A DNA stretch of 56,045 bases from IMG/VR virus record IMGVR_UViG_3300036790_000795, positions 1-56,045 of that record. One strand, written 5' to 3'. Below are positions 8,923-49,901 of this stretch, in pieces (within the stretch, counting starts at the first letter, position 1; each line of letters starts with the position of its first letter). A model generated the notes under the pieces. That model ran no database searches and was not told where the DNA came from. It worked only from the letters and a program-made list of their open reading frames with translations. The DNA is from a virus. Position numbers and translations under genes: made by a program.

Positions 8923-9110
8923 GACTGCACCTCAACCTGACGCCGCCCGACTACGGTCGTAGACCACGATGGTTCAAGGTCTGGGCTGAGCGTGGACACT
9001 GGGAGAACGATGACTGGGTCGTACCGATCCGCGGCAAGCTGTGCTGGTGGTGGAAGCTCGCCTTGTATGGCCGCCTGTTGCGCTCGACACGGATCAGCTT
9101 CGAGCGATGA
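8919..9110 (+). CDS. Small hypothetical protein
   Basis: 63 residues, rich in Trp and basic residues (RPRWFKVWAERGHWENDDWVV; KLCWWWKLALYGRLLR). Overlaps both neighbours by 4 bases. The amphipathic C-terminus could be membrane-associated. No family recognised. Confidence 0.67.
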   Translation: MRLHLNLTPPDYGRRPRWFKVWAERGHWENDDWVVPIRGKLCWWWKLALYGRLLRSTRISFER

Positions 9111-9391
9111 GCAAAGCCACGAGCTACTTGCATCGCCGTTGGCGTGCCAGCGTCGTCTGCGTGGGGGGGATCGTCATCGCGAGCACCGCGCATCCGCTGC
9201 CGGTCTGGGCTTGTGCAGCGATTGGCGCCTTGTGCGGCTTGCTCATCCCAGATAGCCGACCTGACGCAAAGGAGTCGCCCGTGAAGTACTTCGCTGACAA
9301 CGCCAAGCCGGCATGTGTCGTCAAGATCGTTGGCTTGAGCGCCACGGAAGCACGCTCGCTCGTTGACCGCTGGATAGCGAAGCGCCAGTGA
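9107..9391 (+). CDS. Small membrane protein
   Basis: 94 residues. Two hydrophobic segments (ASVVCVGGIVIASTA; VWACAAIGALCGLLIP) form a probable hairpin, followed by a soluble tail. Its first codons (TGAGCAAAGCCACGA) are shared with the next gene, bases 9108-9122 versus 9389-9403. Confidence 0.68.
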   Translation: MSKATSYLHRRWRASVVCVGGIVIASTAHPLPVWACAAIGALCGLLIPDSRPDAKESPVKYFADNAKPACVVKIVGLSATEARSLVDRWIAKRQ

Positions 9392-9633
9392 GCAAAGCCA
9401 CGAACCGCACTCTGCGACGTCAGCTGGAGCGCAAGGCTAGACAGCGCGAACGAGACGAAGCGGAGACGAAGGCACGTCGAGCCGCTCGCAATACCCCGGG
9501 GGTAGGTCGTACTCTCGGGCCGCGAATCTTGACCGCCCGCGTCAACAATTCCCCCCCCCGGCTTTGCGTAAGCCGTCAGGTTGGCCCTCTCGGGGGGTGC
9601 TGGAGGGTGCCAATCCGGCCAGCGGTGGCGTGA
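9388..9633 (+). CDS. Small basic hypothetical protein containing a C9 tract
   Basis: 81 residues, GTG start. The first 37 residues are a Lys/Arg/Glu helix (RRQLERKARQRERDEAETKA). The remainder looks non-globular and is encoded across a run of nine C (9551-9559). A one-base indel there would end the protein about 20 residues earlier, so the true C-terminus is uncertain. Confidence 0.55.
   Translation: MSKATNRTLRRQLERKARQRERDEAETKARRAARNTPGVGRTLGPRILTARVNNSPPRLCVSRQVGPLGGCWRVPIRPAVA
9551..9559. repeat. C9 homopolymer tract
   Basis: Nine consecutive C bases within the last third of a small gene, followed 31 bases later by CTCGGGGGG. Just upstream of the HNH/terminase genes, where cos sites of HK97-like actinophages usually lie. 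Also a likely slippage or sequencing-error site. Confidence 0.8.
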
Positions 9634-28583: not shown

Positions 28584-29511
28584 AGGCTTCGCACTTCAGG
28601 CCGGTAGCTACGGGGCGGAGGTTTTGCGTCGTGCGACGCTGGGCGTCCTACTGGAACGTGGATCTTCGATCGGCTCGGTGGAGGGCGGCCTTGTCGGCGC
28701 CACCGATCTGGCTACGACCGCAGGGACCGGCATGAACCTGGAAACCGCTCCGGGTGAGGTGATCGTTGACCAGGCGTACTCCACGTCCGGGGGGCCTAAC
28801 TATATTCGGGTGACTTCGACGTTGACGACAAAAGTCCCGGCGGCTAACGCGACGAACCCGCGGATCGACTGCTTGTGCGCGCAGATACTGGACGAGGCGT
28901 ACCACGGGTCGAGCAACGAATACGCCATCACCTACCTCGAAGGCACACCCACTTCGGGGGCGACGTTGGCGAATCGGGCATCGCATGGGGAGCCGGCGCT
29001 ACCGACATCGGCGATGGCGCTGGATTACATTCTCGTGCCAGCGAAAGCGACATCGCTGGAAAACGCTGACATCGAAAAAGTCGCGAAACGGGCTGTGCTT
29101 GGGTTGCCGTTGGGTGCTGAAACGGTACTCGCAGCGATGCTCAAGGCTGGAGCCGTCACGGGGCCGAAGCTCGGCGAAGGGACCGTGCGTCAGGAGACGG
29201 GCAGCACACAGAGCTTCCTGTCGTGGGGCCTTATCCAGGGCGCCACTGAATTAAAGACCGGATCTGGGGATTATACTTTCAAACACATTTCGACGGGCCA
29301 TTACGAACTCGTTTGGGATGTCGAAAAGGCGTCGGAAACGTATGGGCTCCTAATCGCTCCTGAAACTTCAAATGGCAGCCATCCCATAAGCTGGGGCTGG
29401 GAAGCGCGAACCAAGTCCCATATGACTTTCTCGACCTACAGCCTAGAAGGCACCGAAACAAAACACTTCCTTGACTGTCCGTTTATGTTCATAGTGATGG
29501 GAACTAGCTAA
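28573..29511 (+). CDS. Tail tip / receptor-binding protein
   Basis: 312 residues. The N-terminal 200 residues (GSYGAEVLRRATLGVLLERG, VIVDQAYSTSGGPNYIRVTS) form a tail-attachment domain common in phage tail-tip proteins. The C-terminal about 100 residues, after GEGTVRQETGSTQSFLSWGL, are beta-rich. They are encoded by clearly less GC-rich DNA (29240-29511), the mark of an exchanged receptor-binding head. Confidence 0.75.
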   Translation: MAVEGFALQAGSYGAEVLRRATLGVLLERGSSIGSVEGGLVGATDLATTAGTGMNLETAPGEVIVDQAYSTSGGPNYIRVTSTLTTKVPAANATNPRIDCLCAQILDEAYHGSSNEYAITYLEGTPTSGATLANRASHGEPALPTSAMALDYILVPAKATSLENADIEKVAKRAVLGLPLGAETVLAAMLKAGAVTGPKLGEGTVRQETGSTQSFLSWGLIQGATELKTGSGDYTFKHISTGHYELVWDVEKASETYGLLIAPETSNGSHPISWGWEARTKSHMTFSTYSLEGTETKHFLDCPFMFIVMGTS

Positions 29512-30152
29512 TTGGGGGAGGGGTCAACCTGGAGGTTGATCCGGGCGCGTTGCTCCCATTCGGGCCAACGCATTAGAGATTCACTGCCCCAGGTAACGAT
29601 TCTTACGCCGTCGGTGGTTGGCCCCAGTGTAAGGATCATATGGGAAGTTCCGTTAGGGAGGGCCATCTCGGTGATCGTCGGCATCGTCTGCGCTTCAATC
29701 GCGCTACGCGCGATGTCACCAGGCGCAACAGAAAGCTGCTCTGAGTAGCCATCGATGGCATGAAATGTCCACCAATTGCTTAGTTCGTCGGTGCCTCCTT
29801 CCGGGGTGCCCCCAGCAGCATAGAAGTCACCGATCACTTCGGCTTCGGGGGGTGTGACGTGCTTTGTGGCGATGATCCAGTCGGCGGCAGCCGCGAACTC
29901 GCAATCCCCGATTGCATTGGGGCCAACATTGTCATAGGTGGGCCACCGCAAGAGTCGCGTGGGTGATTCCGCTGGGAGGCAAATTACGCGGCGATGGTGT
30001 CGCGTATGACGCATGACGAGCTTCGTGAAGTGTGCCCGACAGTGTTCATGTCGAGGGTGCGAGAGCGCGTAAGGGCGACCGTGCGCCGACGCGATGCCTG
30101 GGAGCCACGCAAGGGCTACTACAGCGATGAGAGCGACACGCTTCACGGGCAT
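29508..30152 (-). CDS. Secreted papain-like (C39-type) protein
   Basis: 214 residues. Signal peptide residues 1-23 (VALIAVVALAWLPGIASA) with a likely cut after ASA. The mature part has GDCEFAAAADWI with Cys83 as putative nucleophile. SHMILTLG (His171) is followed 17 residues later by TWG, the Cys...His...TWG layout of papain-like phage proteins; the protein at 33691 shares it. Might cleave or bind a wall or surface target. Last gene of a leftward three-gene unit converging on the tail-tip gene. Confidence 0.75.
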   Translation of the reverse strand: MPVKRVALIAVVALAWLPGIASAHGRPYALSHPRHEHCRAHFTKLVMRHTRHHRRVICLPAESPTRLLRWPTYDNVGPNAIGDCEFAAAADWIIATKHVTPPEAEVIGDFYAAGGTPEGGTDELSNWWTFHAIDGYSEQLSVAPGDIARSAIEAQTMPTITEMALPNGTSHMILTLGPTTDGVRIVTWGSESLMRWPEWEQRARINLQVDPSPN

Positions 30153-32225: not shown

Positions 32226-33194
32226 ATGAAGCATCTCTGGCGCCTGATGGCGCTCCTGCTCCTGCTCGTCCTCGGCGTGATTGCTCAGCTTGTCTCTGCT
32301 GCGCCTGCGCCTGCGAGTCGATTTCATAACACCGATTTCGTAACACCCGCCTGCAACCCTCCCGTGCCCGCACTCCAGCCGAGCGTGTGCGTCCCGTTGA
32401 GCTTCGGTGGACCGCCGACCTCGAGCACGCCGCACGGGGCGCAGGGCGTCGATGTCTCGGACTTCCAGGGCTCCGTGCATTGGAGTGCCGCGAAGCGCTC
32501 GGGTGTCCGGTGGGCCTACGCCCAGTTCGGCGACGGCCAGGGCTTCCGCGACGCGACGTTCGCGGCGAACTGGCGGGAGCTCGTCGGCCTTCGTATCCCG
32601 CACGGCGCCTATCTCTTCCTACGACCGGGTGATGGGGTCCAGCAGGCCCGTGCGCTCGCCACGGCGATCAAGACATCCGGGATCGGCGACAGGACGCTTC
32701 CGGCCGTGCTCGACGCCGAGGTCCCCGAGAGCTACCAGCAGGTCTGCTCGGCCGTGAGCGCGCTACGCAAGACACTTGGCTGGCGCGAGGTGATCGTCTA
32801 CACCGCACCGGGGCTCTGGCTTGCCGGGGTGCCGCACTGTGCTGCTGGCCTGTGGGTCGCGGACTATGGCGTGCTTGTGCCGGCGGTCGCGTGGGGCTGG
32901 CAGTCGTGGGTTGCGTGGCAGTACGAGGTGGGCTTCGCGAGCTGGGTCGGCGGCAAACACGAAGTCGACCGCGACGTCGCCACAGGCATCCTGAAGCTCT
33001 CCTACGGCCGCACCGTGGAGTTGCCGCGTGTCGAAGGCACACGTCGGGTGCTCCGCGCCCACAGGCACCGGCAGCAATGCCACCAGGCGCTGCACGGCGT
33101 CAAGCGTCTCGCCTCACACAAGGCTGAGTGTCGGCGCGAGCTGCGCAAGGGCTCTCGTCTCACTCGTCGTTCTCGTCAACTCGCTCACTCCTGA
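32226..33194 (+). CDS. Secreted GH25 lysozyme (endolysin)
   Basis: 322 residues. Signal peptide or signal-anchor at residues 5-26 (LMALLLLLVLGVIAQLVSA). GH25 domain from about residue 75: GVDVSDFQGSVHW, AYAQFGDG, GAYLFLRPGDG, the catalytic LDAEVPE and the closing WVAWQYEV...VDRD. It cleaves the NAM-NAG bond of peptidoglycan. The C-terminal 55 residues are very basic (HRHRQQCHQALHGVKRLASH), a probable wall-binding tail. A built-in signal means the holins may act by depolarising rather than by forming a pore for release. Confidence 0.9.
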   Translation: MKHLWRLMALLLLLVLGVIAQLVSAAPAPASRFHNTDFVTPACNPPVPALQPSVCVPLSFGGPPTSSTPHGAQGVDVSDFQGSVHWSAAKRSGVRWAYAQFGDGQGFRDATFAANWRELVGLRIPHGAYLFLRPGDGVQQARALATAIKTSGIGDRTLPAVLDAEVPESYQQVCSAVSALRKTLGWREVIVYTAPGLWLAGVPHCAAGLWVADYGVLVPAVAWGWQSWVAWQYEVGFASWVGGKHEVDRDVATGILKLSYGRTVELPRVEGTRRVLRAHRHRQQCHQALHGVKRLASHKAECRRELRKGSRLTRRSRQLAHS

Positions 33195-33206: not shown

Positions 33207-33689
33207 ATGTCTTTTGTTCGCACCGCTGTGCAGGCGGAAGCCTCATCCAAGACTGCGATGATCCTCGCGGTCGTTACCGCTCTCGCGGGCCTCGCGGTCG
33301 GCCTCGGCATCTTCGGACCGCATATCGAAGGGGTCATCATCGCCTGTACGACCGATGGGATCGTCGTCGTCGGGCTGATCGCCAACTCGATCCACACTGG
33401 GCAGATCGAACCGTCCGCTATCGCAACCGCGGTCCTTGCGCTTATCGGCCAGGTAGTAGCGTTGATCGTCGCGTTCGCGTTGATCTCAGATGCGACGGCG
33501 TCACATGTGCTTGCTATCGCGGCTTCGGTGGTGTTGGCCGGGGTGCAGATTGCTCATGCGTTGTGGTCGCGCAACATCGCGCCGGCATTCCTGCCATCTG
33601 AGTTGGGGGAAGTCAAACAGAAGCCTGTCGTGATCGCACAGTCGAGCATCAAGGCTCTCGCGCAGGCGATCGGCGGGAAGGGTGCCTGA
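33207..33689 (+). CDS. Multi-pass membrane protein, putative holin
   Basis: 160 residues. Four hydrophobic segments (MILAVVTALAGLAVGLGIF; VIIACTTDGIVVVGLIA; IATAVLALIGQVVALIVAF; HVLAIAASVVLAGVQIAHA) and a soluble C-terminus. Placed directly after the lysozyme gene with GAAGGGAG upstream, so a holin is the most likely role. Confidence 0.75.
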   Translation: MSFVRTAVQAEASSKTAMILAVVTALAGLAVGLGIFGPHIEGVIIACTTDGIVVVGLIANSIHTGQIEPSAIATAVLALIGQVVALIVAFALISDATASHVLAIAASVVLAGVQIAHALWSRNIAPAFLPSELGEVKQKPVVIAQSSIKALAQAIGGKGA

Positions 33690-33690
33690 G

Positions 33691-34536
33691 ATGCAGACAT
33701 TCTCGATCCCGGTCGCTAACCCGCATCCGCTTAGACCGCAGACCCTTGCGCTTGGGCGTAGTGAGCGCTCAGTGGACAAGCTCACGGTGAACGTCCGCGA
33801 CTTCGTGGATATCGAGAAGGCACTCGCGGTGATCGGGGAAGGCAAGTCGGTGATCCGCGAGGAGCCGCTGGTGGACTACACGACGCTGATCCAGGCGTGG
33901 GAAATGTTTCTCAACGACCAGCTTGGCGACTGCACCTGCGCGAGCGTGGCGCACGGGCGGATGATCTTCAGTGCGCTGATCGGAGGAGCGGTGACGATCA
34001 CCAATGCCGACATCGAACGGATGTACGAAGCGTCCGGCTGGCGGCGGGACAAGCCGGGCAGCGACCAGGGCTGGACGCTGGTCGCCGCGGCGGAATACGC
34101 GCAGACCATCGGCTTGCTTGGCACCGTCGAGAAGCCGGCGCCGGACATCGACGCCTTCGCGGCAGTGTCGGTCGAGGACGATGATGCGCAGCAGGTTGCG
34201 ATGGAGCTGTTCGGCGGTCTCTCCACGGGGGTTGAAGTGCCGGAAAGCGCGATGCGCCAGTTCCAGGAAGGCAAGCCCTGGACTGTTGTGAAAGGCTCAC
34301 CGATCGAGGGTGGCCACGCGATCTGGAAGGCCCTCTCCAGGCTGCGGAAGATCGCGAAGTTCCTCACCTGGGGAGTGCCGCAGGAAGCCGTCGAGGCGTG
34401 GGAGAAGACGTATGTAGACGAGTACCTCGCGTTCGTCCCCCACGCTTGGGAGAGCGAGCTCCCCGAACCGGTTCTCGCATTGGGGATCGTGGACTTCGCG
34501 AAGCTCCGCTCGCTCGTCGGCGGCTACGGCTCGTGA
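33691..34536 (+). CDS. Papain-like (C39-type) protein, cytoplasmic form
   Basis: 281 residues, no signal peptide. LGDCTCASVAHGRMI carries Cys81; GGHAIWKAL carries His209; LTWGVPQEAVEAW gives the TWG motif; and YVDEYLAFVPHAW closes the domain. This is the same Cys...His...TWG layout as the secreted protein at 29508-30152. Members are common next to lysis or tail genes of actinophages, but their substrate is unknown. GGGAAGGG precedes ATG 33691. Overlaps the next small gene. Confidence 0.8.
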   Translation: MQTFSIPVANPHPLRPQTLALGRSERSVDKLTVNVRDFVDIEKALAVIGEGKSVIREEPLVDYTTLIQAWEMFLNDQLGDCTCASVAHGRMIFSALIGGAVTITNADIERMYEASGWRRDKPGSDQGWTLVAAAEYAQTIGLLGTVEKPAPDIDAFAAVSVEDDDAQQVAMELFGGLSTGVEVPESAMRQFQEGKPWTVVKGSPIEGGHAIWKALSRLRKIAKFLTWGVPQEAVEAWEKTYVDEYLAFVPHAWESELPEPVLALGIVDFAKLRSLVGGYGS

Positions 34537-34700
34537 ACTGGCAGTGGGTCGCGGAGTCGTTCCTGGGCTCCGCGATCGGGTGGGCGACTTTCAGCGGCTG
34601 CGCGTACGCGTGGGGCAAGCGCAAGCTGCTGCCGCTCTACCACAAGCATGTTGAAGAGCAAGCCAAGCTGCTGCTCGCTGAACGAGAGGAACACCGATGA
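34533..34700 (+). CDS. Small membrane-associated protein
   Basis: 55 residues, GTG start in a GTGA overlap. A weak membrane helix (AESFLGSAIGWATFSGCAYA) is followed by a charged tail (HKHVEEQAKLLLAEREEH). Its stop overlaps the start of the phosphorylase-like gene. Could anchor a partner protein. Confidence 0.65.
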   Translation: MNWQWVAESFLGSAIGWATFSGCAYAWGKRKLLPLYHKHVEEQAKLLLAEREEHR

Positions 34701-35686
34701 GCGACCCTGTTCTCGACCGGATCACCGCAGAGCCGTCTCGCTATGACTTCGAGGCGATCCCGTTCCCTGCGGGCCTTGCGCCCGAGTGGATTGGGACGGT
34801 CACGAAGCCCGAAGACCCACTGCCGGCGGCGGATGTGGTGGTGATGACGTTCACGGCCGCCGAGAAGTACGCCCTCGCGGACACGCTGACCCCCGGCTAC
34901 CACTACACCACATGGAAGCCATACACGCACGAATGGGACGCCTTCGAGCTGCACCTGACTGATCGCTCGCCAGCCCATGAGGAGCAGGCGCTTGGCTCCT
35001 ATGCGCTGGTCACGATCAACGGCAAGCGCGTGCTCTTGTTCGGCTCGAATCTGCATCCGGCGACGGACGATGTGACGATGCCTTTGCGGGCGTTGTGGCG
35101 GCAGATCATCACGGAGACGGGCTGCCAGCTCGCGATCGACACCGGCACCGCAGGTGGCGTCGGCCCGGATGTCGTCGAGGGCGACGTGCTCGTCACCAGC
35201 ACGGTGCAGCTGAACTACACGAAGCTGTTCAAGGACGAAGCATTCGCCCATGAGCGTCTTGAAAGCACGCCGTACACACCTGGGCCGCATCTTGCGCTCG
35301 CGGCCTCGACGTTGATCCCGGTCAACGCGAAGCGGCTCAGCCCGATCGCGACGAGACTCCCGGTAGTCCACACGGAGGGCAACGACGAGAGCGTCGACTA
35401 CTTCGCGTTCGCGGCGCCAGGCGACCCGTACGGTGTCGTGAAGGCCGATCCGGAAGCGGTCATGGAGGAGATGGACCTCGGGGCGCTCGCGCTCGCCTGC
35501 CGGGATCTCGACGAGCACGCACCGTGCTGGCTGTCGATCCGCTGTGCCTCGGATCCCGAAGTGAAAGCCGGGACCTTGAAGGAAGAGAAGGCCGAAGCGG
35601 ACGAGATTTACGAAGACGATGGCTGCTGCGCCGCGCTCGGCTCGGATCTTTGCTGTTGGGCGGTCATCGCGGATATGGAGGTGTGA
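34697..35686 (+). CDS. Nucleoside phosphorylase / nucleosidase-like enzyme
   Basis: 329 residues. The fold signatures of the PNP/UDP phosphorylase and MTA/SAH nucleosidase superfamily appear in order: VVVMTFTAAEKYALA (first strand), IDTGTAGGVGPDVVEGDVLV (about 147-167), MEEMDLGALALAC (about 256-268; compare the family's DME-sAA-A element) and LSIRCASDP (about 279-287). It would cleave or phosphorolyse a nucleoside-type substrate. A Cys-rich acidic C-terminus (DDGCCAALGSDLCCW) is added. Overlaps the upstream small gene by 4 bases. Such an enzyme is unusual between the lysis and tail-fibre genes. Confidence 0.8.
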   Translation: MSDPVLDRITAEPSRYDFEAIPFPAGLAPEWIGTVTKPEDPLPAADVVVMTFTAAEKYALADTLTPGYHYTTWKPYTHEWDAFELHLTDRSPAHEEQALGSYALVTINGKRVLLFGSNLHPATDDVTMPLRALWRQIITETGCQLAIDTGTAGGVGPDVVEGDVLVTSTVQLNYTKLFKDEAFAHERLESTPYTPGPHLALAASTLIPVNAKRLSPIATRLPVVHTEGNDESVDYFAFAAPGDPYGVVKADPEAVMEEMDLGALALACRDLDEHAPCWLSIRCASDPEVKAGTLKEEKAEADEIYEDDGCCAALGSDLCCWAVIADMEV

Positions 35687-35687
35687 G

Positions 35688-36062
35688 ATGGGCGAAAACC
35701 TAATTACCGGCGAGTCTGACCGCCTGCTTGAAAACAGCCTCGACTCGACGTACGTGGCGTTGTTCACCACGGTCCCGAACGAAAAAGGCGAAGGCGGCGT
35801 CGAGGTATCCGGCGGCGCCTATGAACGCCAGCCCTTGACCATCACTAGCCCCGCGAACGAGGAATGCAAGAACGATGGTGCGCTTGACTATGCGAAAGCC
35901 TCAGCGGAATGGGGCGAAATCAAGGGGTATGGTGTATTCACCGCGAAAACGGCTGGGACGTTGCGGTGGCGTGAGAGCTTGGAGGAGGCTGACTACCGGA
36001 CGGTGAAGACGGGCGATGAATACCGTATCGGTAATGAAGAATTGACATTCACGCTGAGCTAA
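35688..36062 (+). CDS. Tail fibre-associated protein
   Basis: 124 residues. The pattern TYVALFTTVPNEKG, EVSGGAYERQPLTI, ASAEWGEIKGYGVF and ends in GDEYRIGNEELTF matches a widespread phage tail-fibre companion family that recurs next to fibre genes. Probably a beta-sandwich at the fibre base. GC content is lower than its neighbours. Confidence 0.85.
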   Translation: MGENLITGESDRLLENSLDSTYVALFTTVPNEKGEGGVEVSGGAYERQPLTITSPANEECKNDGALDYAKASAEWGEIKGYGVFTAKTAGTLRWRESLEEADYRTVKTGDEYRIGNEELTFTLS

Positions 36063-37450
36063 TGGCGATCACAGCAGTCGCTGGCGCAGGCGAACCAGTC
36101 AGTTTCAGCAAAGAAGCGACTTCCTACAAGCTGAAAAAGCCAGCAGGCGTAGAAGCCGATGACATCCTGATCACCGGGGTCGTCGTTGGTGGAAAACCGA
36201 CGTTCACGACGCCAGGCGACTGGACACTTATTGCCTCCACGGAGATGGGTAGTGAAGTAGCAATCGCGCTGTACTGGATGCGTTATACGTCCGGTACCGA
36301 ATGGGAAGCTAAATGGTCCGCCAAGAACTTTTTCGGAGCATGGGTAGAGGCATACCGCGGCTGCGTGACATCGGGGTCACCGATTGATGTAAGTTCGGGC
36401 GGTAAGAAGAAGTTCAGTGAAGGCGAACCTACCGAAACTATCACGCTCAAAGAAGCGGGCGAGATGGTGGTAGCCATCGCGTGCCTGAACGAGGAAGGCA
36501 AGTGGACCGTTGCCTCGGGCTTCACGTCACGGTCAAGTCAGGAATCATGGCTGTTTAGCGACAAGCTGTTCACGGGTTCCGGCTCGACCGGGGCGGTGAA
36601 ACCAACCGCGCCCGCCCATGACAGCACCGATGAATGGTCGCAAGAGCTGATCGCGTTGCTGCCCGCAGGGGGCGAAGTCATCGAAGGTCCCCCTGTGACG
36701 CTGGCCGCGCATGCAAGCGCCGCGGGTGTTGGTAGTCAGCGGATGAATGGTGCCGGTGCGCTCACGGCTGCCGCGAGCAGCGATGGTGAGGGTAGCGTGC
36801 GGTTCAATGGTGCTGGCTCCATGGCTGCGGCTGCGGCCCTGGCAGGCAGTGGCGTGCTGAGATTGAATGGTGCGGCGTCCTTTGCGGCACTGGCGAGCCT
36901 GACGGGGGATGGCATCACGAGGCACAATGGCGGTGCTGACCTGGGCGCAAGTGGCGCATGGTCGGGGTCTGGGTTCGCTCGGTATGCCGGTGGGGGCGCG
37001 TTGCTCGCGGCTGGGAATGTGGCTGGGCATGGTGTGACACGATTCAACGGCTCCGGTTCGCTGGCCGCGACGGCGGCCATGACGGGCACGGGAACCGTCG
37101 GGTTCACCGGGTCGGGGCGCATGTCGGCGAGCGCTGAGTGGTCTGGGTCTGGCACCGTCCGATTCAACACTGTTGGCCATATGTCGGCGCGGGCGACATG
37201 GACGTATCACTCCGCGGCTCCACCGCCCCTCGAACGTCCTACCCTGCTGATCTTGTTGCCGCGCGGCACCGGCCTGGCGGTCGCTGCACGGAGTACTGCT
37301 CTGACGCTTGCTGCCCGTGGAGCTGGCGTGAATCTCCCAGCCCGCGGATCTGGCGTTGAGCTACCTGATCGTGCGACTACCCTTGACCTAGCAGACCGTG
37401 ACGCCAGCCTTGTCCTGTCTCCTCGCGAAACGAGCGTGAGTACCAAATGA
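36062..37450 (+). CDS. Tail fibre with two classes of repeats
   Basis: 462 residues. Residues 1-205 are a beta-rich globular domain (LYWMRYTSGTEWEAKWSAKN; AGEMVVAIACLNEEG) often found in phage fibres. From residue 229, seven exact-length 20-residue Ala/Gly repeats follow (consensus NGaGs-aAaaa--GsGv-RF), plus a partial eighth. Then seven 9-residue repeats (consensus LxLaaRgag) lead to the end. The repeat shaft probably folds as a beta-helix or triple-stranded fibre. Confidence 0.82.
   Translation: MAITAVAGAGEPVSFSKEATSYKLKKPAGVEADDILITGVVVGGKPTFTTPGDWTLIASTEMGSEVAIALYWMRYTSGTEWEAKWSAKNFFGAWVEAYRGCVTSGSPIDVSSGGKKKFSEGEPTETITLKEAGEMVVAIACLNEEGKWTVASGFTSRSSQESWLFSDKLFTGSGSTGAVKPTAPAHDSTDEWSQELIALLPAGGEVIEGPPVTLAAHASAAGVGSQRMNGAGALTAAASSDGEGSVRFNGAGSMAAAAALAGSGVLRLNGAASFAALASLTGDGITRHNGGADLGASGAWSGSGFARYAGGGALLAAGNVAGHGVTRFNGSGSLAATAAMTGTGTVGFTGSGRMSASAEWSGSGTVRFNTVGHMSARATWTYHSAAPPPLERPTLLILLPRGTGLAVAARSTALTLAARGAGVNLPARGSGVELPDRATTLDLADRDASLVLSPRETSVSTK
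36746..37204 (+). repeat. 60-bp in-frame repeats of the tail fibre
   Basis: Repeat units start at 36746, 36806, 36866, 36926, 36986, 37046, 37106 and 37166 (last partial), each exactly 60 bases. DNA identity is moderate, with the AATGG(T/C)G start and the G-R/H-F/Y end most conserved, so the repeats are old and under protein-level selection. Confidence 0.9.
37247..37435 (+). repeat. 27-bp in-frame repeats of the tail fibre
   Basis: Seven units of 27 bases from 37247, each coding a 9-residue element with a hydrophobic-x-Leu start and a conserved Arg at position 6 (LILLPRGTG, LAVAARSTA, LTLAARGAG, VNLPARGSG, VELPDRATT, LDLADRDAS, LVLSPRETS). Confidence 0.88.
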
Positions 37451-39529: not shown

Positions 39530-39922
39530 TTAAGGACCCTCGAGTGGGGGCCTGGTCTTCTCTTGCATCCAGATGGTGAAGTAGTCCTCTGTCATGCGTT
39601 TCGCGGCGACGGCGCGGAAGGTGCGGTTGATTTCCTCCGGGGTCGCGGTGATCTTCAGATGATGCTCGGCGAGATGAACTTCGGTGAGCAGGAGGGCGAC
39701 GCGCTTGTTGCCATCCGGCAGGGGGTGGTTGCGCATGATGCGGGAGGCGAGGATGGCTGCTTGCTGGACGATGCCGGGGTAGAACTCGTGCCCTCCGAAC
39801 GATGCGTGTGGGGCCGCGAGCGCACTCTCCGCGAGAGGGATCTTCGTGACAGGGATCAGGCGCTCGGCGTCGATGCCGAGGGCTTGTTCTGCCGCGAGTA
39901 GAAAGTCGTCTATCTCAAGCAC
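39530..39922 (-). CDS. doc: Doc-family toxin (Fic fold)
   Basis: 130 residues, the usual Doc length. The catalytic motif HPLPDGNKR (residues 66-74) matches HxFx(D/N)GN(K)R with Leu in place of Phe; upstream SFGGHEFYPGIVQQAAILA and downstream RVALLLTEVHLAEH complete the fold. Doc proteins phosphorylate EF-Tu and stop translation. Divergent from a ribbon-helix-helix gene at 40022. GTG start is 6 bases after a TATACT -10 box, so the mRNA is leaderless. Confidence 0.87.
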   Translation of the reverse strand: MLEIDDFLLAAEQALGIDAERLIPVTKIPLAESALAAPHASFGGHEFYPGIVQQAAILASRIMRNHPLPDGNKRVALLLTEVHLAEHHLKITATPEEINRTFRAVAAKRMTEDYFTIWMQEKTRPPLEGP

Positions 39923-40021: not shown

Positions 40022-40240
40022 ATGTCGACCGAGACAAGAGCCATGAGTTTGCGCCTCCCAGAGGACCAAGCCCGTGCGCTCGATGCTGTCGCGATGGCCG
40101 ACCAGACCTCCGTGTCGGAGGTGATCCGTGACGCTATCGCTGAGCGCATCGCACAGAAGCGCAAGGACAAGGACTTCCAGGAGCGTCTTCGGACTGCCGT
40201 TGAGCGCAACCGGGAGGCACTGGACCTACTCGCCGAGTAA
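40022..40240 (+). CDS. Ribbon-helix-helix antitoxin
   Basis: 72 residues. N-terminal strand and two helices (MSLRLPEDQARALDAVAMAD, TSVSEVIRDAIAERIA) form an RHH DNA-binding domain; the charged C-terminal helix (FQERLRTAVERNREALDLLA) would wrap the toxin. AAGGAGA upstream of ATG. Divergent partner of Doc and probable autoregulator of both promoters, unlike P1 where the antitoxin Phd has a YefM fold. Confidence 0.85.
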   Translation: MSTETRAMSLRLPEDQARALDAVAMADQTSVSEVIRDAIAERIAQKRKDKDFQERLRTAVERNREALDLLAE

Positions 40241-49069: not shown

Positions 49070-49395
49070 GCGGCCATCGTCTCAAGCGAAGGATGCTCGG
49101 CCGTCTCCGCTGGGCGATTGGCCAACGGATTGGCCGTCGCTGTAAGCCCCGCTCCTTGGCGGCTCGCGCGCGGCTTTTCTGGCACGACTTCGTGATCCAT
49201 GTGCTCTTCGAGGGTGGCGAGCGCTGCCAGGACTGCGGGAGGGACTACGTGCTCTGGGAGGCGCCGACCTCTCTGTATGTTGAGGTTCACGGCTCTCCTT
49301 GGGGGCTTCTCTGCCCGGGATGCTTCGACAGGCAGGCGCGCGAAAAGGGCATCGCCGTCGAGTTCGTCGCGCGGGAGATACCGGTGCGCGGATGA
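49066..49395 (+). CDS. Zinc-binding hypothetical protein
   Basis: 109 residues, GTG start. Basic N-terminus, then CQDCGRDYVLWEAPTSLY and LLCPGCFDRQAREKGI: two CxxC pairs 28 residues apart, a zinc-ribbon fold. Probably nucleic-acid-associated. Confidence 0.76.
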   Translation: MSGHRLKRRMLGRLRWAIGQRIGRRCKPRSLAARARLFWHDFVIHVLFEGGERCQDCGRDYVLWEAPTSLYVEVHGSPWGLLCPGCFDRQAREKGIAVEFVAREIPVRG

Positions 49396-49901
49396 AGGCC
49401 GTCCTCTCAGACGACGGGGTTTACCGCTATGCGCTTTGGCGCGAGACGGGCATCATCGGTGGTGAAGGGACCGTGTTGTTCGTGATGCTCAACCCGTCCA
49501 CGGCGGACGCCGAGCAGGACGATCCGACGATCCGGCGGTGCATCGGCTTCGCCCGACGGTGGGGCTACGAACGCCTGGCGGTGGGGAACCTCTACGCGCT
49601 GCGCTCAACAGACCCGAAGGCGCTCGCACTCGCCGAGGACGCGATCGGTCCGGAAAACGACCGCTGGCTCTGTCATCTCGCCGAGCACGCATGGGAGGTC
49701 GTGCTGGCGTGGGGCGCTCACCCATTCGCCACCGATCGGGCGCGAGATGTGCGCCAGCTCGTCGAGGGACGGTCTGGAGGCTCCGCGAATTGCCTCGGCC
49801 AGACGAAGAACCTCTCGCCGAAGCACCCGCTCTACCTGCCTAAGAGTGCGGTGAGGGTGCCGTTCCAACGGTATGGGGAGATGCCGGCGGTGAGGTCGTG
49901 A
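49392..49901 (+). CDS. DUF1643 family protein
   Basis: 169 residues. Signature YRYALWRETG, VLFVMLNPSTADAEQDDPTI, VGNLYALRSTDPKAL and VVLAWGAHPF is that of DUF1643, a family of small phage and mobile-element proteins (structure reminiscent of uracil-DNA-glycosylase-like folds; activity unproven). Confidence 0.9.
   Translation: MKAVLSDDGVYRYALWRETGIIGGEGTVLFVMLNPSTADAEQDDPTIRRCIGFARRWGYERLAVGNLYALRSTDPKALALAEDAIGPENDRWLCHLAEHAWEVVLAWGAHPFATDRARDVRQLVEGRSGGSANCLGQTKNLSPKHPLYLPKSAVRVPFQRYGEMPAVRS

Follow-up and report, generated by a model that had tools for sequence, protein, structure and literature searches.

A late nucleosidase-like gene of the MTAN type beside a papain-like gene in a soil phage

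Why would a tailed phage carry, between its lysis and fibre genes, a gene that resembles those of nucleoside-splitting enzymes? The question is raised by a 56,045-base viral contig (IMG/VR record IMGVR_UViG_3300036790_000795), the whole of which was analysed and is called the window below. A sequence-only reading had named the protein encoded at 34697-35686 a nucleoside-phosphorylase-like enzyme. The explanation that we favour, with a probability of about 0.5, is that this is a late, transferable accessory gene for a purine-nucleosidase-like protein of the MTAN (MTA/SAH nucleosidase) type, possibly working with the protease encoded beside it.

The late region of the phage

The phage comes from soil. 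The window encodes a portal, a maturation protease, a capsid protein, a tape-measure protein and a minor tail protein, with a serine integrase at the right end, and these mark a tailed phage that is temperate-type at most. The term 'prophage' used in the sequence-only reading says too much, as no integration was seen.

The nucleosidase-like gene sits among late genes. A GH25 endolysin (32226-33194, from a domain search) is followed by a membrane protein (33207-33689), a papain-like (C1-type) protein of 281 amino acids (33691-34536, + strand, assigned from a structure model and an alignment), a 55-amino-acid protein with a GTG start and one likely transmembrane stretch (34533-34700, + strand, its membrane nature being read from the sequence only) and the nucleosidase-like protein of 329 amino acids (34697-35686, + strand). 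Directly after it come a Gp80/phrog_240 protein (35688-36062) and a fibre-like protein (36062-37450), the latter labelled from its position and repeats only. The start of the 55-amino-acid frame overlaps the stop of the papain-like gene, and its own stop overlaps the next start in the sequence ATGA. The place between lysis and tail fibre, the papain-like gene upstream and the four-base overlap with a small membrane-type protein, all proposed earlier, are thus borne out.

The frame has 329 open codons, and its GC content by codon position, 0.65/0.46/0.82, resembles that of the portal and capsid genes. An antisense frame of 377 codons (34637-35770) was taken as a spurious product of GC-rich DNA, and an origin as foreign DNA was rejected on composition, as the GC content of the region is ordinary. 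A scan for sigma-70 promoters gave no match, terminator candidates were at chance level, and the window holds no tRNAs or Rfam elements. The right-hand region encodes a DUF1643 protein (49299-49901, + strand; PF07799, 3.8e-41).

Family, fold and active site

The search against PF01048 that had been suggested as a check gives a match at E=2e-9 and 37.6 bits, above the gathering cut-off of 25.1. The ordered superfamily motifs are where they had been reported: GTAGG at residues 150-154 (35144-35158, + strand), GDV at 162-164 and RCASDP at 282-287 (35540-35557, + strand), with MEEMD at 256-260. An AlphaFold model built with eight family sequences has a pLDDT of 79 and a pTM of 0.85, residues 228-257, near the pocket, being poorly modelled. 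Its best Foldseek matches are MTA/SAH nucleosidases (8.4e-11), and VIA aligns it with the Vibrio cholerae MTAN 3dp9 at Z 16.2 (210 residues, rmsd 3.7) and with DeoD-type purine nucleoside phosphorylase (PNP) and uridine phosphorylase at Z about 14.6. All PDB matches among those listed are MTANs, PNPs, uridine phosphorylases or futalosine enzymes; the MTAN mutants Glu12Gln and Asp197Asn are among the match titles from VIA. The model therefore has the phosphorylase alpha/beta fold, and together with the Pfam match it upholds the superfamily call.

The word 'phosphorylase' fares less well. Nucleosidases come out nearest both by structure and among curated models, and a profile of the family (described below) matches MTANs among PDB sequences at 9.6e-15, against 1.6e-6 for DeoD-type PNP. 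Phosphorylases carry a phosphate-binding arginine in the N-terminal loop and another before the GxxG loop. In the 14 core members of the family residues 148-149 and those N-terminal loop positions that were checked hold no arginine, which makes hydrolysis the likelier chemistry and sets the family apart from DeoD-type PNP and uridine phosphorylase despite the common fold.

The likeness to MTAN (Pfs; PRK05584, TIGR01704) extends over 210 residues of the fold and includes a GTAGG-like loop, EM[DE] and RxxSD motifs, the catalytic Glu/Asp pair, an adenine-stacking Phe and the C-terminal helix. The differences are also considerable: identity is 12-21%, the window protein has about 44 extra N-terminal residues, its first helix and second strand are separated by roughly 30 more residues, and a loop that is longer than its MTAN counterpart carries His120 and Asp124 (35054-35068, + strand), both invariant in 14/14 core members. 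The score against the NCBIfam equivalog PRK05584 is 18.8 bits, with a cut-off of 169.

In the structural alignment residue 45 of the model falls on MTAN residue 1, and hence Glu56 (34862-34864, + strand; invariant in 17/17 aligned members) on Glu12. In the profile alignment the VEME stretch is matched by Glu258-Met259-Asp260, and the aspartate of RxxSD by Asp286. Glu56, Asp260 and Asp286 thus line up with MTAN Glu12, Glu174 and Asp197, the second being an Asp in place of a Glu. The roles of these catalytic residues in MTAN are established, as is that of the adenine-stacking Phe that corresponds to Phe236. The window copy keeps the whole superfamily catalytic set (E56, F236, M259, D260, R282, S285 and D286). 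Within EMDL (residues 258-261; 35468-35479, + strand) Glu258 and Met259 are kept, and the aspartate that the family has at 261 is Leu only here; within RCASDP, Arg282, Ser285 and Asp286 are kept and the family Asn283 has become Cys. Loss of pocket residues had been named as an outcome that would speak against the assignment, and it applies in part: the catalytic residues are present, and the adjoining D261 and N283, otherwise invariant in the core family, are gone.

The 'Cys-rich C-terminal addition' that had seemed odd turns out to be the canonical last helix of the PNP/MTAN fold (residues 294-325; 35576-35671, + strand). Relatives read YGYWTTxxSAIxCWAVIA in this helix, and the cysteines of the window protein are lineage-specific substitutions there.

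Relatives and the recurrent papain-like neighbour

Searches with the window protein as a single sequence gave no match in viral contigs, genome contigs or deposited phages. A family alignment was seeded from one Azospirillum plasmid gene (28% identity), and profile searches from this seed led to eight further viral records, nine with the window, and to several scattered bacterial genes. The alignment has 17 members, 14 of them core; PF01048 matches 16/17, and for 16/17 the closest curated model is MTAN (best 1.8e-12). Several features mark the family and are not in the aligned MTANs, i.e. a longer 66-98 stretch with Trp73 and Tyr76, the longer 117-128 loop with its invariant His120 and Asp124, and the motifs EMxDA and RNxSDP.

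No match turned up among 50,697 deposited phage records, and the viral structure library gave no phage match at E<=0.001. Members occur in 2/346 genomes of the Nostocoides phylum and in 6/347 genomes of the phylum of an acidobacterial member, both counts including the seed genome. A literature search, with subscription journals mostly outside its reach, found no description of the family, which is rare and apparently uncharacterised. A divergent sister group (L033, L034, L035 and L036) comes from genomes of the acidobacterial phylum; these relatives, several without D234 or GDV, are standalone genes with no consistent neighbour. An Azospirillum plasmid operon (L002, 3034-11890) encodes a HAD hydrolase, gluconate dehydrogenase subunit 3, a GMC oxidoreductase, a GDPD, a nucleosidase relative and an amidohydrolase. 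On one viral contig (L010, 122,744 bases) the nucleosidase gene spans both ends, and their overlap suggests that this genome is circular and complete.

Phage and bacterial members interleave on the tree, with four label changes, a pattern consistent with repeated transfer between phages and bacteria. In the three nearest phages by the minor tail gene (62% identity) the stretch compared has neither the nucleosidase gene nor the papain-like gene, and the nucleosidase is absent from 3/3 of their whole records. The two genes are therefore accessory cargo.

The window copy groups with those of L004 and L010 (96/97), and its end branch is the longest of this clade (1.2 vs 0.48 and 0.63). It differs at 8/54 family-conserved columns, and the changes D261L, A262G and N283C are its alone: every other core member whose sequence reaches these positions keeps the family residue. 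As the copy evolves fast and has lost D261, A262 and N283, its activity is not assured: it may be inactive, decaying or shifted in specificity or function.

The papain-like protein (33691-34536) has no Pfam match. Its AlphaFold model, from a 17-sequence alignment, has a pLDDT of 82, and VIA matches it to xylellain (3ois) at Z 18.8 over 212 residues and to procathepsin B at Z 16-17 (near 16.8), aligned over the pro-region of the latter. With these C1 enzymes it has in common the fold and the positions of Cys and His, and Cys81 and the histidine of GGH209 are invariant in 17/17 aligned sequences. It differs from them in its low identity (about 13%) and in the Asn segment, which reads LTWG where papain has NSW, so that the protein is probably, though not certainly, catalytic. 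The window encodes another papain-like relative (29508-30152, - strand), which is shorter, has what looks like a signal peptide and gives a weak profile match (7e-4).

A papain-like gene adjoins the nucleosidase gene or lies within 3 kb of it in 6/9 viral records (a raw count). Recognized by Gly-x-Cys ... GGH, the neighbour adjoins the nucleosidase gene in L004, L010, L030 and the window, where the 55-amino-acid frame stands in between; in L013 and L028 it is no more than 3 kb away. The papain-like genes of L010, L028 and L030 fall into another sequence group (GSC...NSW), called by motif only, so that the neighbours come from at least two sequence groups. No papain-like gene was found near the nucleosidase in L011, L012, L029 or most bacterial loci. 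Among the bacteria, Nostocoides (L006) has a papain-like gene directly upstream, and in the acidobacterial L005 an astacin-like peptidase gene lies 43 bases upstream. In L004 the nucleosidase gene is followed, with a four-base overlap, by a gene for a PLD-like (HKD) protein (9026-9565; PF13091, 6.9e-15).

The association is one-sided, because the papain-like family is the commoner of the two (at least 197 viral stretches) and 0/80 fetched loci of that family hold a nucleosidase. A search for background loci that used the endolysin as an anchor returned only the contig of the window itself. Although the fold is a known one, both the subfamily and the protease that recurs next to it appear to be new.

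What the gene may do

Under the favoured reading, the gene product would be an MTAN-type nucleosidase with the PNP fold, located in the cytosol. It would break the N-glycosidic bond of a purine nucleoside or a 5'-substituted nucleotide by hydrolysis and not by phosphorolysis, with adenine as the probable base. The longer 66-98 region, the 117-128 loop and the EMxDA and RNxSDP motifs suggest a substrate other than MTA or SAH. Expression would be late, from an operon with the papain-like protease and the membrane-type protein, and the cassette would be a horizontally moved accessory that may act jointly with the protease. The target would probably be the host nucleotide pool or a nucleotide signal, and the protein would not be expected in the virion.

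It is conceivable, if doubtful, that the gene in the window has lost its activity and is a drifting passenger, for which the long branch and the three lost family-invariant residues would speak; yet the frame is open throughout with a normal codon-position GC, the operon overlaps are tight and the superfamily catalytic residues are all kept. Should the protein be active, it might serve as a metabolic helper, i.e. an MTA/SAH-type or purine-salvage nucleosidase that frees methylation from inhibition by its product or recycles purines towards the end of infection. There is a precedent in Lake Baikal viruses, an MTAN of which was put forward as an auxiliary metabolic gene (PMC7678222), and the closest structures and models are MTANs. 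We nevertheless consider this role unlikely: the score is far under the MTAN equivalog cut-off, the extra loop and its invariant His120 and Asp124 are not in the aligned MTANs, and a metabolic gene would be out of place so late and next to a protease.

The immune role raised by the sequence-only reading, i.e. superinfection exclusion or counter-defence by an enzyme that breaks down ATP, NAD or a nucleotide signal and so blocks rival phages or disarms host defence, rests on superfamily kinship. A PF01048-type (PNP) effector that cleaves ATP is known from Detocs (PMC11249213), and some relatives of the window protein match the PADLOC model PDC-M60C (9/17, best 3.9e-6) or a PN-superfamily effector model (4/17, best 5.3e-4). 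The accessory position is variable, and about 3.8 kb downstream there is a Fic/Doc gene. Against this, the window protein has no PADLOC match at E<=1, and a known defence effector family was rejected for it; its relatives match those models weakly and plain MTAN models far better, and the cassette is unlike the operons of the Detocs and CBASS PNP effectors (ATP nucleosidases) in having no sensor or signal-making gene. For exclusion genes of the kind that lysogens express, a late place next to the lysis genes would be unusual, and we hold the immune role to be rather improbable. The Fic/Doc family protein itself (39530-39922, - strand; PF02661, 2.7e-10) has an HPLPDGNKR motif, and a divergent frame of 72 amino acids (40022-40240, + strand) is antitoxin-like, of the ribbon-helix-helix kind, as read from the sequence only. 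The remaining explanation turns on the neighbour, with the papain-like protein activating the nucleosidase or sharing its target in a two-part effector. The recurrence of such neighbours from at least two sequence groups in viral records and in Nostocoides, the astacin-like peptidase in L005 and the resemblance of the papain-like model to pro-enzymes all favour it. The protease does not need the nucleosidase, however, as its many other loci show, and the nucleosidases of L011, L012 and L029 have no papain-like neighbour; we regard the pair as a tentative idea with the odds against it. A bolder form would have the two proteins make up an undescribed two-part effector shared by soil phages and bacteria, the papain protease being zymogen-like and the MTAN-fold nucleosidase having a novel substrate; this seems quite improbable.

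Our preferred reading thus remains that of a late, transferable nucleosidase-like accessory gene. Genes of the PNP superfamily that belong to this subfamily are rare in phages. That a distinct subfamily recurs beside a papain-like protease in otherwise different phages points to a possible activity of phages towards purine nucleosides or nucleotides. Provided that it is active, such an enzyme could, at a late stage of infection, adjust the nucleotide pool or remove a nucleotide signal.
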